Below are positions 55,963-64,000 of a stretch of DNA of 64,000 bases, in pieces. The notes beneath the pieces are model-generated. The model was not told the DNA's origin. It saw only the letters and a program-made list of their open reading frames with translations, and did not search any database. Every line of letters starts with the position of its first letter. The first letter of the stretch is position 1. The stretch spans positions 1,098,497 to 1,162,496 of the forward strand of contig NC_013515.1 of assembly GCF_000024565.1 (NCBI RefSeq), read 5' to 3'. The translations under genes were made by a program, and so were the position numbers. The stretch is from Streptobacillus moniliformis DSM 12112 (GTDB lineage: Bacteria; Fusobacteriota; Fusobacteriia; Fusobacteriales; Leptotrichiaceae).

Positions 55963-56049
55963 AAAAAGCTGCTTAAGGCAGCCAGTCTTACGATTTTGTA
56001 TCTTAATACAGAATCTGTAGTAAACTTGAATAATGTGAATCTTATCTAC
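55961..56049 (-). ncRNA. tracrRNA
   Basis: The minus strand reads an anti-repeat (56041 down to 56005) that matches the complement of the crRNA repeat over ATTCACATTATTCAA, then TTTAC, then, after a bulge, TTCTGTAT. A small stem (GTATTAAGATAC) and the terminator GCTGC-TTAAG-GCAGC plus seven T follow. Length (~90 nt) and layout are those of type II tracrRNA. The direction tells that the crRNA repeat runs GATACAGATT... on the minus strand, so crRNA and tracrRNA are made from the same strand. Confidence 0.85.
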
Positions 56050-56055
56050 ACAATT

Positions 56056-56083: not shown

Positions 56084-56119
56084 CACAAAAATCATTTAAA
56101 TTTAGTAAGAATCTGTATC
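56084..56119 (-). repeat. Degenerate terminal CRISPR repeat
   Basis: The stretch ends GTAAGAATCTGTATC, close to the repeat end CCAAGAATCTGTATC, but its other half has drifted. A 28-nt pseudo-spacer separates it from the first good repeat. Decayed repeats are usually at the leader-distal end, which places the leader at the cas2 side. Confidence 0.7.
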
Positions 56120-56147: not shown

Positions 56148-59100
56148 CATTCACATTATTCAAATTTACCAAGAATCTGTATCCACTGTCACCTTCATAA
56201 AAGGTTGTTAGTACATTCACATTATTCAAATTTACCAAGAATCTGTATCTAGTCCAGATATATTTGTCAAATGCAGAATCATTCACATTATTCAAATTTA
56301 CCAAGAATCTGTATCTAGTCCAGATATATTTGTCAAATGCAGAATCATTCACATTATTCAAATTTACCAAGAATCTGTATCTAGTCCAGATATATTTGTC
56401 AAATGCAGAATCATTCACATTATTCAAATTTACCAAGAATCTGTATCTCTTATCTCTTAAAATATTTTCAGACACTACATTCACATTATTCAAATTTACC
56501 AAGAATCTGTATCATTGTTTAATTCTTTCCATGTTATTTTGTACATTCACATTATTCAAATTTACCAAGAATCTGTATCAATAACTTAAACGAATATGAC
56601 AGAAAAGCGCATTCACATTATTCAAATTTACCAAGAATCTGTATCCGTTCGGTGAAACTCCAAATCTCATTTTTACATTCACATTATTCAAATTTACCAA
56701 GAATCTGTATCTCACAAAACAAATGGATTTTCAAAATTTAACATTCACATTATTCAAATTTACCAAGAATCTTTATCCTGAGTTGCATTATTCTAGCCGT
56801 ATTAAAACATTCACATTATTCAAATTTACCAAGAATCTGTATCTTACCAATAAACCTGTTTCTTTTCCAAATTCATTCACATTATTCAAATTTACCAAGA
56901 ATCTGTATCGTTTAGAAAATGCTAAAATTTTAAGATATGCATTCACATTATTCAAATTTACCAAGAATCTGTATCATGTGTCATGTTCACTTTTGCTTTC
57001 ACTTTCATTCACATTATTCAAATTTACCAAGAATCTGTATCTAGGGGCTGTTTGTGTTATCGGCGTTGTATCATTCACATTATTCAAATTTACCAAGAAT
57101 CTGTATCTTAATTTTAAATTTTTAAGTTTATTTAGTGCATTCACATTATTCAAATTTACCAAGAATCTGTATCCTTTCTAACAATAAAATCTTCATTTTT
57201 TGACATTCACATTATTCAAATTTACCAAGAATCTGTATCATATGATTGGAAAGGTATTCTATGGAGTTGCATTCACATTATTCAAATTTACCAAGAATCT
57301 GTATCTTTTTATCATTTTATTATTTAAGATGTTTGCATTCACATTATTCAAATTTACCAAGAATCTGTATCCTTCTAACAATACTAATTCTTTATTATCC
57401 CCATTCACATTATTCAAATTTACCAAGAATCTGTATCTTCTTCTGTATCCCAGTTTATACTTTTTGACATTCACATTATTCAAATTTACCAAGAATCTGT
57501 ATCCCTTCTTTAGTTCATTGCCTTCTTTATCAACATTCACATTATTCAAATTTACCAAGAATCTGTATCATCTTAAAGACCCACCATATCTTTTAACTGC
57601 ATTCACATTATTCAAATTTACCAAGAATCTGTATCATTAAAAAGAAACAAGAAGCATTAGAAAAACATTCACATTATTCAAATTTACCAAGAATCTGTAT
57701 CATTGTTTAATTCTTTCCATGTTATTTTGTACATTCACATTATTCAAATTTACCAAGAATCTGTATCTTTTCCTTTTCATAATTCAGTTCATAAACACAT
57801 TCACATTATTCAAATTTACCAAGAATCTGTATCTCAACTCAAGTTTTTTTATATTATCATTATCATTCACATTATTCAAATTTACCAAGAATCTGTATCT
57901 AAAACTAGGATTTAATTATTATTTTTAAACATTCACATTATTCAAATTTACCAAGAATCTGTATCCTTTTTTTAATCCATTTCCCTCTTTATCAACATTC
58001 ACATTATTCAAATTTACCAAGAATCTGTATCTTCTTCCGTGTCCCAATTTATGCTTTTTGACATTCACATTATTCAAATTTACCAAGAATCTGTATCCTT
58101 TCTTTAAGATGTTTCCCTCTTTATCAACATTCACATTATTCAAATTTACCAAGAATCTGTATCTTAAAGTCGTGCAACAAATTGTTTATAAATCATTCAC
58201 ATTATTCAAATTTACCAAGAATCTGTATCTCGTAAAAAGATATTAATAAATTCTTCTTTCATTCACATTATTCAAATTTACCAAGAATCTGTATCGTCTC
58301 GCGGGGGCGACGGCGCAACAAGGAACATTCACATTATTCAAATTTACCAAGAATCTGTATCAATTTAACTCATATTTATAAATTGGTACATCATTCACAT
58401 TATTCAAATTTACCAAGAATCTGTATCATGAATTAACATGAATTAAATCTTTTGATACATTCACATTATTCAAATTTACCAAGAATCTGTATCAATCGAT
58501 CAATCCTTTTCCCCAAATTTCTGCATTCACATTATTCAAATTTACCAAGAATCTGTATCATTCGGTTTCATACAAATCCCGCTCTTTTTCATTCACATTA
58601 TTCAAATTTACCAAGAATCTGTATCAAGTAGTGTCGTGTTTATCTCTTTCCTTTTCATTCACATTATTCAAATTTACCAAGAATCTGTATCCGTTATGAA
58701 ACTTTCGTTTAATTGAACATTCATTCACATTATTCAAATTTACCAAGAATCTGTATCAATTAAAAAAATATGAGTTCGAAAAAAAATCATTCACATTATT
58801 CAAATTTACCAAGAATCTGTATCTTTGTGTCATAGTCCCGTTTATTGTCATCTCATTCACATTATTCAAATTTACCAAGAATCTGTATCTCAGCTCATGC
58901 TCCAGCCTCAAAGACCATTCATTCACATTATTCAAATTTACCAAGAATCTGTATCGTTTAGGCGGCGCGACAGCGCAACCAGGTACATTCACATTATTCA
59001 AATTTACCAAGAATCTGTATCTTAATTTTTATTGTTTTTCCTTCGATTTTTCATTCACATTATTCAAATTTACCAAGAATCTGTATCTATATGTTAACGT

Positions 59101-59219
59101 CACAAACATACCTTTACCATTCACATTATTCAAATTTACCAAGAATCTGTATCTCTGCGTCATAGTCCCGTTTATTGTCATCTCATTCACATTATTCAAA
59201 TTTACCAAGAATCTGTATC
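56148..59219 (-). CRISPR. CRISPR array, 47 repeats of 36 bp, 46 spacers of 30 bp
   Basis: The plus strand shows repeats starting CATTCACATTATTC and ending AAGAATCTGTATC; the crRNA strand is the complement, beginning GATACAGATTCTTGG. Every unit is exactly 66 bp from 56148 to 59184, so all spacers are 30 nt. One repeat (56742) has a single change near its end (CTTTATC for CTGTATC). Spacers 2-4 are identical; spacers 6 and 24 are identical; spacers 20/29, 21/28/30, 33/43 and 41/46 are near-identical families. Because 66 is a multiple of 3, the array creates long artificial open frames (FTLFKFTKNLY), which are not genes. Confidence 0.98.
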
Positions 59220-59304: not shown

Positions 59305-59619
59305 CTAAAAAATAACCAATGGATTTTTTGAAAGCTTTATTTCAGATAATTTAGGTTCTTTTACTAATATTAACATATTTTCATATTGTTTGTTAGTAAT
59401 TTTTAAAATTCTTACTTCTCCACCACTTAATTTATTACTCAATTTTTTTACTCTATTAAAATATTTTGAAGATTCAGCATCATTTCTGCAAAATCTTGAA
59501 TAGCAAGAAAATTGCATCATAATAAATCCTTCAGATAACAAATTTTTTCTAAAATCCTGAGCTTGTTTTCTTTCTAATTTAGTTGATACTGGCAAATCAA
59601 AGTAAACAAGTAATCTCAT
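59305..59619 (-). CDS. cas2: CRISPR-associated endoribonuclease Cas2
   Basis: 104 residues from the ATG at 59617-59619. MRLLVYFDLPVSTKLER is the usual Cas2 start with the conserved Asp in YFDLP, and SEGFIMMQFSCYSRFC follows. With Cas1 it forms the spacer integration complex. It lies 4 nt after the cas1 stop codon. A longer reading from 59646 would overlap cas1 and lacks support. Confidence 0.95.
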   Translation of the reverse strand: MRLLVYFDLPVSTKLERKQAQDFRKNLLSEGFIMMQFSCYSRFCRNDAESSKYFNRVKKLSNKLSGGEVRILKITNKQYENMLILVKEPKLSEIKLSKNPLVIF

Positions 59620-59623
59620 TTCT

Positions 59624-60550
59624 CTATAACTCTTTAAAAAGGTCATAAAAATCTATTTTTATTATTTCAGGTATAGCCAGCATTTCATTACCTTCTTCTA
59701 AAAAGTTTAGATAACTTTTTATTAATAATTCCATAGAATACAATACTGTATATTCTTTTTCATTAACTTTAATATTTGCATTTAAAAGAGAAATTAACTC
59801 TTTTCTTGTATCTGTTTTTAATTCATCATCTTTTTCAAAACGATAAAGATGATTAAATACATAATAATCTATTATTGGTCTATATGGTTCTATGAAATCA
59901 TATGTTAGATTAAAGGCATTCATCATAGAACTATGATGAACACCTATATATGTTGCAAATCCATAAGTGCATAACAATCTAGTAATTGCACTTCTAAACA
60001 CTCCATATCCATAATCTAATGCCATATTTATAGAATCTCTTTCATTTTGTCTACAAAAATTTGTACCATATAGATAATTAAAAAATACTTTAGCAGCTGT
60101 TCCTTCTCTATTTTGAACATCACTCCCTATAACTTCATCTTCATATTTTTGCATTAATTCTATCAAATCACTTGAAGCATTTTCAAGTTCTAAAACCTTT
60201 TTTGAATTTCTAATTTTAGCTTTTAATAATTTCTCCCAAACAAATTCTTTAGATTTAGATGTTTGTTGCCCTTGCAAACTATGGACATACGGTATTCTGT
60301 AATGTTGATTTATAGGAAGACTATATGCCACAGGCATATGTCTATAATCACAAAATATCATCGTTATATTCCTTAAAGATAATTCAGATATTATTCTTAA
60401 GCTTATATAACTTTCTAAAGATTCAAATACTATTATCGAAATATCACTTATGGGTACAGATAATTTTTTATCATCTTTTTCTACAATCAAATTATCATTT
60501 TCAAAATGAATATATGATTTCTGAGTTATCAAAACTTGCCTAAATGACAT
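59624..60550 (-). CDS. cas1: CRISPR-associated integrase Cas1
   Basis: 308 residues. The N-terminal beta domain (YIHFENDNLIVEKDDKKLSVP) and the helical catalytic domain are seen, the latter with EGTAAKVFFNYLYG (Glu), IGVHHSSMMNAFNLTYD (His) and DFIEPYRPIIDYYV (Glu/Asp), the metal ligands of the family. It integrates new spacers with Cas2. The ATG is one base after the cas9 stop codon, and the ribosome-binding site AGGAGA lies within cas9. Confidence 0.97.
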   Translation of the reverse strand: MSFRQVLITQKSYIHFENDNLIVEKDDKKLSVPISDISIIVFESLESYISLRIISELSLRNITMIFCDYRHMPVAYSLPINQHYRIPYVHSLQGQQTSKSKEFVWEKLLKAKIRNSKKVLELENASSDLIELMQKYEDEVIGSDVQNREGTAAKVFFNYLYGTNFCRQNERDSINMALDYGYGVFRSAITRLLCTYGFATYIGVHHSSMMNAFNLTYDFIEPYRPIIDYYVFNHLYRFEKDDELKTDTRKELISLLNANIKVNEKEYTVLYSMELLIKSYLNFLEEGNEMLAIPEIIKIDFYDLFKEL

Positions 60551-60551
60551 A

Positions 60552-63500
60552 TCAATCTCCTAAAATATTTTTGTTAATTTTCTTAATTGATTTTATAGTT
60601 GATACTGTTATATAGTATCTTTCTTTAATTCTAGTAGAAATTTTATCATTAATTAAATCAAGAGCATCTCCTATTACACTTGATATTTCAATTTTACCAC
60701 CACTAAATCCCACAACTAAACATTTAGAAATATTTCCTTTATTTAATTCAAGTTCTATAGTTTCTCCAGGAATTAATTCATGTATTAATCTATATCCATT
60801 TTCTTTCAATTTATTGTATCTAACTTTGCAAAAATGTATTGCATCTTTCCAAATAGATATATTTACATCTTTTTCACTTTTTAATAAATTATATTTATAC
60901 CTACCTATACTTGCAAATTTAAGACCTTCTTCTGCTTCTTTTTTTAAAACCAATATTTTAACAGTTGTTCGTCCCATCTCAACATATCTTTTATTACCTA
61001 ATTTTATCAACTTATCTTTATTCCCATCAACTATTTTAACCTTTTTAATTATATTACCATTTTTAAGTTTAGGGTAATCTTTACTTTTTGCTTCAAGCCA
61101 TTTAACTAGTGTTTCATATATTTCCTTTTGACTTCCATCTTTATCAAATATTTTTCCTAAATTTTTATAATTTATATCAAACACTGATATTCTTTTTGTT
61201 ATTTCACCTTTACTCTCACCAAGTATAGTTTCAGCATGTAAAGCTCCACTAACTTTTGATTTCACAACATGATAAGGTAATTTGTTATTTTCTCTCTTAT
61301 CAAAAATTTTATTTTTAATATCATCAAGGAAATTTTCATAAGGTTTAACTAAATTAAGTCTATGTGTCTTACCGTTAACATTAAACTTAATTCCTCTCTC
61401 ATTACCATCTATATCTATTATTTTTTGTTTTTGTAACTCTTCAGCAAATTCTTTTGAATCAATATATTCTCCTTTTTCTTCATTGAATATTTCTATTTCT
61501 TTATTCTTCAACACAGAAATAAGTTGATTATATTTTATTAACTTCATTTGCATAGATCTATTCATAATTGTTAGTAAGAAGGCATCTAAAGAATGATGTA
61601 AATGATTTTCTCTATTTTTGCTATATACTTCTTCTTTTAGAGCTGTTATCATTTTATATAGAATTGAAATAATTTCAGGCTCAACAGTATCAATTTCCTC
61701 AAAATCAACTATTTTTAAATCAAATAATACTTTATCTTTAAAATAATCAGAAATTTCAATTAAATTCTCTTTTTTATCCAATTCTTTCTTTAACAATTCA
61801 TCCTTAATAGTTTTAAATTCTCCACTTTTATTTTTCTCAACTTTAGTTTCTGAAGTAATTTCTAAGCCAGTATTTACATTATATGCAGTCATTTTTAAGT
61901 TATCTTTATTTATTTCAAATTCTTTTAAAATAAAAGCCTTATTATCTATATCAAGAGTATCAGATTCAAAGCTATGTGTATATTTATTTAAACTGTATAA
62001 ATTTCTTAACATAGAAGTCATCTTACCTTGAAATGCTATTACATTTCTATTATATAAATATTTTACTTTTTCATTACCATGTTCATCATATTTATCTTCA
62101 TCACTTACTGGTATTAATCTTTGGAATATATTTAAAGCTAATCTTGAAGAATAACTTGTAGCATGTAGTTCACGTTCTAAAAATTCATTATTAACAACTT
62201 CATCTTCAAATAATAAATTTTCTTTTTTCTTATTACTGATATTTAAATTTAATCTAACTCTTTGTTTAAATTCATTCCATTTTTCAGTGCCTTTTAACCA
62301 CTGATAAGGTGTCCTTTCTTTTTTGTCTTGATTTTCATTACTAAAAACTAAGACTTTATTAGAATATGAATTATCAAATGATTTTGAATACGGAAGAATA
62401 TGGTCTATTTGTACCTCTGCACTAGTTAATTGATATTTTTCAATAGTTCTTCCTGAATACATACACACCTTATTTTGTTCTTCCCACAATTTTATTCTAA
62501 CGAAATCATCATTAGATAATCTATCTTTACCTGCAACTATGTCTTTATTAGCTCCATACATTTCAAAGGCTGCAACTTCTCTTCTAACCTTATTTTCTAA
62601 CTGTTCTTTTTGAATCTTATTTCTAGTACTAAAATCATTAGAAAAATCTCTTGATAATTCTAAATGTACTTTTTCTGGTCTACCATATTTAAATAATAAT
62701 GTGTTATATAACTTTCTTAGAATTACTAAAATATGCTTAACATTAGGGTTAGTAATTTTAGTGCTTAGACTATCCTCTATTTCAGAAATAGTTGGGAATT
62801 TTTCCCAATCAACATCAGTATCTATATAGTAATTTAAACTTGAAAGAGAAGATTCATAATCGTGTCCTTCCATTAATAATTTATTTAGTTCTCTAACCAA
62901 GCTTAAAGATAAATTCCCATTTTTAGTATAATTTGGGAAAGTTTTAATGATCTCAACAATATCTCTTTGCTCTTTAAACAAACTATATCTTTCAACATTT
63001 TCAACAAAATATTCTAATTTTTCATCTGTTTTAGAATAAGTTAGTAGCTCAGCAACTAAATCAAGAAAATATATTCCACCTAATTCTTTTATTCTGTTTT
63101 CATCTATATTATTTTTCTTAAATTTAGATTTTAATTCTTTATACGCTTTAAGATTATTTCTAATTAATTCCTGTTTCATTCTTTCGTTATTTAATTTTTC
63201 ATTAAATGCATTTATTTCTTCTTCTGTTAAATTTTCATTATCATTTCTTTCTTTAAAATACGATTTTCTTAATTCTACATATTTTGATTTTGAAAGTTTT
63301 GGAATATTTAATAATTTAATGTTTTCTTCATCAATACTTTTTTCAATCAAATCATATGTTAAAGTTTTATTTTTTTCGACAACTAAATCATACAACTTAT
63401 GAATAACTTCTTTACTTAATTTTTTCTTCTCTATTTTATCTTCAGAAGTAAATTTAACATATCTAATATCATTTAATTTTTGTAACATAGTAAATATTTC

Positions 63501-64000
63501 ATATGAAGGGGCTGATTTTACAGCTCTAACTTCACCTGTATATTTACATTTACCTGCCAACTTAGTATAATCTATTTTATATTTACTATCTCCACCTGGT
63601 CCATCTGAAAAATCTCTTTGTGATGACAGTATATCAATATATTCATCTACAATTTCTTTAGAAAGAATTTGTTGTGTTCCTAAAATTTTTCTTACCTCAT
63701 CAATGACTTGATTTCTTTTAAATCCAAACTTATAATTACCTTCTTTGTTTTTAAACCCTAAGATGCTATTATCATTTTCTCTAATCATATAGATTACTTC
63801 AATTGGAGTTAATCCTTTACTTTCAATTAATTCTGTATTTTTAGCAATGATAGGTTTCAATTTCTTTTCATCAGAATCTTTTTCACTAATTTTTTCTCCT
63901 AAACTTTTCAGTATTTCCAGATCTTCAGTTTTTCTATTAGATTTAAATCCTCTATTTTTACAATAATATATCATTAATCTTGCAATTTCATTTTTGCTTA
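60552..64000 (-). CDS. cas9: CRISPR-associated endonuclease Cas9, type II-C (N terminus outside window)
   Basis: About 1149 C-terminal codons are visible; the RuvC-I start (family IGLDIG motif) lies beyond 64000, and the frame is open to the window edge. NRGFKSNRK, near the visible start, is typical of II-C Cas9 proteins. RuvC-II is HLELSRDFSND. The HNH domain reads VQIDHILPYSKSFDNSYSNKVLVF, cited as DHILPYSKSFDNS. RuvC-III is HLHHSLDAFLL. The active sites that can be seen are intact. The set cas9-cas1-cas2 without csn2 or cas4 defines II-C. The PAM is not readable from the sequence. Confidence 0.95.
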   Translation of the reverse strand, partial: SKNEIARLMIYYCKNRGFKSNRKTEDLEILKSLGEKISEKDSDEKKLKPIIAKNTELIESKGLTPIEVIYMIRENDNSILGFKNKEGNYKFGFKRNQVIDEVRKILGTQQILSKEIVDEYIDILSSQRDFSDGPGGDSKYKIDYTKLAGKCKYTGEVRAVKSAPSYEIFTMLQKLNDIRYVKFTSEDKIEKKKLSKEVIHKLYDLVVEKNKTLTYDLIEKSIDEENIKLLNIPKLSKSKYVELRKSYFKERNDNENLTEEEINAFNEKLNNERMKQELIRNNLKAYKELKSKFKKNNIDENRIKELGGIYFLDLVAELLTYSKTDEKLEYFVENVERYSLFKEQRDIVEIIKTFPNYTKNGNLSLSLVRELNKLLMEGHDYESSLSSLNYYIDTDVDWEKFPTISEIEDSLSTKITNPNVKHILVILRKLYNTLLFKYGRPEKVHLELSRDFSNDFSTRNKIQKEQLENKVRREVAAFEMYGANKDIVAGKDRLSNDDFVRIKLWEEQNKVCMYSGRTIEKYQLTSAEVQIDHILPYSKSFDNSYSNKVLVFSNENQDKKERTPYQWLKGTEKWNEFKQRVRLNLNISNKKKENLLFEDEVVNNEFLERELHATSYSSRLALNIFQRLIPVSDEDKYDEHGNEKVKYLYNRNVIAFQGKMTSMLRNLYSLNKYTHSFESDTLDIDNKAFILKEFEINKDNLKMTAYNVNTGLEITSETKVEKNKSGEFKTIKDELLKKELDKKENLIEISDYFKDKVLFDLKIVDFEEIDTVEPEIISILYKMITALKEEVYSKNRENHLHHSLDAFLLTIMNRSMQMKLIKYNQLISVLKNKEIEIFNEEKGEYIDSKEFAEELQKQKIIDIDGNERGIKFNVNGKTHRLNLVKPYENFLDDIKNKIFDKRENNKLPYHVVKSKVSGALHAETILGESKGEITKRISVFDINYKNLGKIFDKDGSQKEIYETLVKWLEAKSKDYPKLKNGNIIKKVKIVDGNKDKLIKLGNKRYVEMGRTTVKILVLKKEAEEGLKFASIGRYKYNLLKSEKDVNISIWKDAIHFCKVRYNKLKENGYRLIHELIPGETIELELNKGNISKCLVVGFSGGKIEISSVIGDALDLINDKISTRIKERYYITVSTIKSIKKINKNILGD

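Follow-up and report, generated by a model that had tools for sequence, protein, structure and literature searches.

The CRISPR array of Streptobacillus moniliformis 9901T contains families of related but non-identical spacers that share exactly the same register, and many of the differences within a family are silent when the spacers are read as codons. We consider it likely that the members of each family were acquired independently and at different times, the source being one PAM-anchored coding protospacer carried by diverged phages related to one or a few lineages. As a whole, the array looks like a clear record of phages attacking again and again, though one that is largely as expected. 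A bolder reading, in which the array rewrites the same guides as the phage drifts silently and so keeps successive versions of the same codons, a fossil series from which silent divergence or escape could be read, seems to us possible but doubtful.

The type II locus and its array

The window analysed is a 64,000-nt stretch of a genome of 1,673,280 bases in two contigs (26% GC). It carries a type II locus, cas9-cas1-cas2, with the following features.

56006..56055, minus strand: anti-repeat of a presumed tracrRNA, with a hairpin and a T run downstream on the same strand (putative function)
56148..59219, minus strand: CRISPR array, 47 repeats of 36 nt, with the crRNA taken as the minus strand
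59305..59646, minus strand: cas2
59624..60550, minus strand: cas1 of type II
60552..64000, minus strand: cas9, an open frame with its N-terminus beyond the window end

The cas9, cas1, and cas2 genes form one operon that adjoins the array. The locus is a candidate for subtype II-C, which has neither csn2 (a II-A gene) nor cas4 (a II-B gene). No gene beyond cas1 and cas2 lies between cas9 and the array, and the library matches name type II and no subtype. The Cas9 frame is open, N-terminal MKYILGLDLGVASIGWAV, and extends past the window end. A tracrRNA is predicted near the array from the anti-repeat with its hairpin and T run. The crRNA was taken as the minus strand because of this anti-repeat and the PAM-side flanks found in the sister species.

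The array has a period of 66 nt. Of its 47 repeats 46 are identical and one carries a single change, and a degenerate extra repeat copy is located at 56084. All 46 spacers are 30 nt long, and 43 of them are distinct, the exact copies being these.

56250..56411, minus strand: spacers 3-5, identical tandem copies, 26/30 to a phage coding site (FAFDKYIWT) with three of four differences silent
56514..56543, minus strand: spacer 7, identical to spacer 25, with no neighbours in common
57702..57731, minus strand: spacer 25, identical to spacer 7

The newest spacers are probably at the cas2 side, since the degenerate repeat sits at 56084. The S. notomytis array has degenerate repeats at both ends, and in type II-C arrays transcription can run from the oldest spacers (PMC5524643). 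The arrays of S. moniliformis strains are reported to be heterogeneous (PMC5093955). The polarity of the array is therefore uncertain; the main claim of re-acquisition is independent of it.

Spacer families in the same register

Two families had been noticed from the letters of the array. Spacers are numbered here one higher than in that sequence-only reading (its 20/29 are 21/30, and its 21/28/30 are 22/29/31).

57438..57467, minus strand: spacer 21 (formerly 20), family A, SKSINWDTEE
58032..58061, minus strand: spacer 30 (formerly 29), family A, SKSINWDTEE, four silent differences from spacer 21
57504..57533, minus strand: spacer 22 (formerly 21), family B, DKEGN-E-LKK
57966..57995, minus strand: spacer 29 (formerly 28), family B, DKEGN-G-LKK
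58098..58127, minus strand: spacer 31 (formerly 30), family B, DKEGN-I-LKK

Both descriptions proved accurate. Spacers 21 and 30 share one register, differ on the plus strand at positions 7, 10, 16, and 22, and both encode SKSINWDTEE on the minus strand; all four changes fall at third codon positions and all are transitions. Spacers 22, 29, and 31 read DKEGN-x-LKK on the minus strand, and each pair differs in one amino-acid codon and two to five synonymous codons. The variable residue x changes radically (E/G/I). The adjacency of the two families, which the same reading had pointed out, was also borne out: clusters 21-22 and 29-30-31 give three A-B neighbour pairs (permutation P 0.00054, treating 44 positions as independent, in a post hoc test suggested by that very observation). 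A common origin of families A and B is a possibility for which this adjacency is the one piece of evidence.

The array holds two further families, C and D.

58824..58853, minus strand: spacer 42, family C, one of several open frames reading MTINGTMTQ
59154..59183, minus strand: spacer 47, family C, identical to spacer 42 at 28/30, with two differences that are silent when read as MTINGTMTQ
58296..58325, plus strand: spacer 34, family D, GC-rich, best frame LAGATAQQG
58956..58985, plus strand: spacer 44, family D, GC-rich, LGGATAQPG, identical to spacer 34 at 22/30

The members of these families are not adjacent in the array. The eight differences of family D make two amino-acid changes in the best frame, and both of its GC-rich spacers stand in a genome of 26% GC. 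A fifth family, E, was found in a sister species (G032, locus L041), where spacers 5 and 12 differ at two bases; in the best frame one of these changes is silent and the other alters the amino acid. The adjacent spacers 38 (58560-58589) and 39 (58626-58655) encode KERDLYETE and KERDKHDTT, with frame and register shared; with 16/30 identities they are perhaps a deeper family near noise level.

Among the 103 distinct spacers of four Streptobacillus arrays, seven pairs reached at least 22/30 in the same register, six in the S. moniliformis array and one in the sister species. Shifted registers served as a control, and at each of 10 other registers no pair reached at least 22/30. We favour re-acquisition because high-identity pairs occur at the true register only, and because an independent pair of this kind exists in the sister species.

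Silent differences within families

For each family, we asked how often random changes of equal number and kind would spare the peptide of the best stop-free frame at least as well. The P values were 0.07 for A, 0.07, 0.005, and 0.09 for the B pairs, 0.45 for C, 0.12 for D, and 0.94 for E, the sister-species family showing no silent excess. Combined, they gave 0.006 when the best B pair was entered and E omitted, 0.016 when E was added to these, and 0.098 for the weakest B pair together with E. The silent excess within families is thus modest: the synonymous differences are as first described, but the statistics, with a combined P of 0.006 to 0.10, are weaker than that wording.

Searches for the protospacers of the families

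Protospacers of families A and B lying in one gene, in the predicted frame and with a shared PAM, had been proposed as the way to check their coding origin; none was found in the phage, viral, plasmid, and genome sets. Family A had no protospacer in viral_contigs, genome_contigs, 98 genomes of the phylum, or 33 genomes of the family, and family B had none in viral_contigs or those 33 genomes. For families C and D none was found in viral_contigs, and the phage records and plasmids held none for the families. The eight viral contigs with DKEGN matches encode unrelated proteins.

Several candidate identities were rejected. The N-terminus of a VapE-type helicase was considered for family A, as the peptide RKSIDWKTEV of the G027 prophage resembles SKSINWDTEE; the first S is R or K in 12 of 12 aligned homologues. 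Family B did not fit the DKNGK site of the same protein. A protein with YKSIDWDTEG, which we take to be a uracil-DNA glycosylase, was one of several unrelated loose-pattern matches to family A at about the chance rate. The match of family A to the pilot protein of a microvirus from rodent faeces (24/30, E 8) encodes TERIKLDTEE and is at chance level, and all matches of family D to GC-rich phages had E of 2 or worse.

Protospacers of other Streptobacillus spacers

A search of viral_contigs with a degenerate peptide pattern of spacers 3-5 matched one contig, IMGVR_UViG_2772190723_000001 (28% GC, 25.6 kb, with terminase and portal genes), to which spacer 3 matches at 26/30 with three silent differences and one amino-acid change. 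Spacers 3-5 also resemble the A1 gene of T5-like enterobacterial phages (27/30, same peptide frame, DSAFDKYIC). For spacer 3 this similarity (28 nt including three repeat bases, E 0.001) is given as a side observation, because the AT-rich contig keeps the W and T of the peptide as well. The portal gene of the contig led to a prophage in G031, a genome that a 100% identical terminase points to as S. notomytis AHL 370-1. An earlier search with two Pfam families had indicated that four genomes of the genus lack a prophage, a false negative given the prophage later found by its portal.

All 103 spacers were then compared with seven phage or prophage stretches at a cut-off of 26/30. Eight spacers reached at least this level, and reversed spacers, used as a control, reached 25 once. 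They are spacer 3, S. notomytis spacers L040_3, 6, 12, 18, and 19, and G032 spacers L041_1 and 8. All eight protospacers lie inside long open frames, seven in sense and one in antisense. Seven of the matches carry differences, 13 in total, of which nine are silent and four change the amino acid (chance share 0.24, P 0.0007). Two further matches, both at 24/30, do not enter this count: spacer 19 of the S. moniliformis array, at control level, and L039_28, whose peptide fits a presumably SSB-like gene in a prophage or phage stretch. At 24-26/30, L040_18 further matches the terminase genes that prophages of other bacteria carry, which illustrates how such a coding site drifts. Orthologous targets of other spacers of the genus differ from the spacer mostly at synonymous sites.

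Re-acquisition is favoured because all eight protospacers found lie in genes and nine of 13 differences are silent; the modest silent excess in the families, the consistent 3' flanks of the sister-species targets, and the three A-B neighbour pairs also speak for it. By analogy with these spacers, the proposed origin of families A and B in coding sequence under purifying selection is supported; in place of related invaders, repeated copies inside one invader may be the source, above all for the DKEGN family. The points against re-acquisition are that no protospacer was found for families A-D, that the silent-change test weakens to P 0.10 with the least favourable pairs and takes in a sister family lacking a silent excess, that x in family B changes radically, that S. 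moniliformis yielded no PAM, and that the frame of family C is ambiguous.

Of the 19 spacers listed for the S. notomytis array, two of them being pairwise repeats of others, four match the bacterium's own resident prophage with one or two mismatches and PAM-like flanks (L063/L064, L040). Spacers 18 (57240-57269) and 41 (58758-58787, antisense) are similar to peptides (YDWKGILLT and LKKFEFEKE) from a pair of neighbouring genes with which the S. notomytis prophage ends. In a peptide scan of all spacers, observed and control counts were similar below a score of about 36, and weak peptide matches were not used as evidence.

Proposed mechanism and alternative explanations

Re-acquisition would proceed as follows. 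The PAM would fix the start of the protospacer, so that orthologous sites give spacers in the same register and phase; purifying selection on the phage protein would leave mainly third-position differences; and at each visit of a related phage the type II adaptation machinery would store the current variant. The clusters 21-22 and 29-30-31 may then represent two infection episodes by related phages carrying both sites.

The same sites may instead have been re-taken by the host after one phage lineage silently changed its protospacer under an older spacer, an escape followed by an update. Newer and older members differ within the PAM-proximal 12 bases in all families of the array, and Legionella pairs behave likewise (PMC5071653). 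However, differences also lie outside the PAM-proximal part (in family A at 9, 15, 21, and 24), the four to eight changes per site exceed what escape needs, and the polarity of the array is uncertain. In the type II-C system of Flavobacterium columnare, moreover, the four clearest protospacer changes were non-synonymous (PMC5524643). We regard this escape and update as unlikely.

Still less probable is that some families, above all DKEGN-x-LKK, represent a repeated motif or paralogues in one invader, captured from one phage in one episode. The variant codon of family B is radical and variable, spacers 29 and 31 lie in one cluster, and motifs of the DKEGN type occur in many unrelated phage proteins. 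Yet family A differs at silent sites only, families C and D are not adjacent, and no phage with repeated copies of the motif was found among the DKEGN matches in viral_contigs.

Duplication within the array followed by mutation there is very improbable. Exact copies are present (3=4=5 and 7=25), but only one change occurs in 47 x 36 nt of repeats and none among the exact duplicates, against 2-8 of 30 bases in the families, and neighbouring spacers were not copied along with the variants. The unchanged repeats contradict mutation inside the array as the origin of the variants, in line with the earlier view, and re-acquisition is favoured because family members differ at 2-8 of 30 bases while 46 of 47 repeats are identical. 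Chance similarity of AT-rich 30-mers can be practically dismissed, since 22 to 28 of 30 identities occur at the true register only and shifted registers gave none, even if weak pairs such as 38/39 (16/30) are near noise.

Relation to known systems

In a study of Legionella pneumophila type I-C, repeated, overlapping, or same-sequence spacers in one array are taken to mean that related elements invaded more than once (Rao 2016, PMC5071653). There one array carries, in a likeness to the present case, an older mismatched spacer and a newer one for overlapping regions of the same element, LME-1. The Legionella system is type I-C with a known target, whereas the present one is type II, with exact register, at most three members per family, and family targets not in hand. 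In F. columnare (type II-C), likewise, several spacers against one phage lineage with protospacers changing over time are described (Laanto 2017, PMC5524643); those changes are non-synonymous in the four clearest cases and come from phages sampled over years, whereas here the variants, mostly silent, lie in one array. In the primed acquisition of Streptococcus mutans type II-A, an old spacer with a partial match may guide where new ones are taken, which may apply here too; many new spacers there fall within kilobases of the older target, whereas here the same site would be re-taken (PMC8265633).

The present analysis contributes families in exact register with partly silent differences, found in a type II array from a genus that has had little study, together with coding targets for relatives. 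Same-register silent families suggest the target strand, frame, and peptide before any phage is sequenced, and their count allows a capture-recapture estimate of the target sites sampled by the host. In Streptobacillus, the families suggest that the host met a few phage lineages again and again. The prophage of the sister species supplies targets, along with candidate PAMs, for Cas9 systems that have received little attention.

PAM and number of target sites

The 3' flanks of the five S. notomytis-array protospacers are TGGGTGA, AAGGAAA, AGGTTAA, ATGGAAT, and TAGGTAA, consistent with NNG[G/T]W..., and their 3' side agrees with type II systems. Both G032-array protospacers are flanked by ATAATCC. 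The consistent flanks come from sister-species arrays; for S. moniliformis itself the matches yielded no PAM.

Among 44 acquisitions there are seven coincident pairs, six of them diverged and one, 7=25, exact. From these, about 135 effective sites (66 to 336) are estimated; leaving out the exact pair gives 158. The 35-kb S. notomytis prophage stretch contains 149 NNGGWAA or 616 NNG[GT]W[AG]A sites, a comparison that borrows the PAM of the sister species and indicates scale only. With one lineage and a stringent PAM, plain sampling would be nearly enough, because about 135 effective sites compare with 149 NNGGWAA sites in the prophage; several lineages or a looser PAM would need a site bias.

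Spacer 13 (56910-56939) matches a host gene perfectly (G000:C1:1252919-1252948), which we take to be mnmG/gidA-like, and matches three congeners at 29-30/30. The 3' flank at this site is CTTTAATAG, while cas9 is open. Spacer 13 is probably a tolerated self-target without a PAM.
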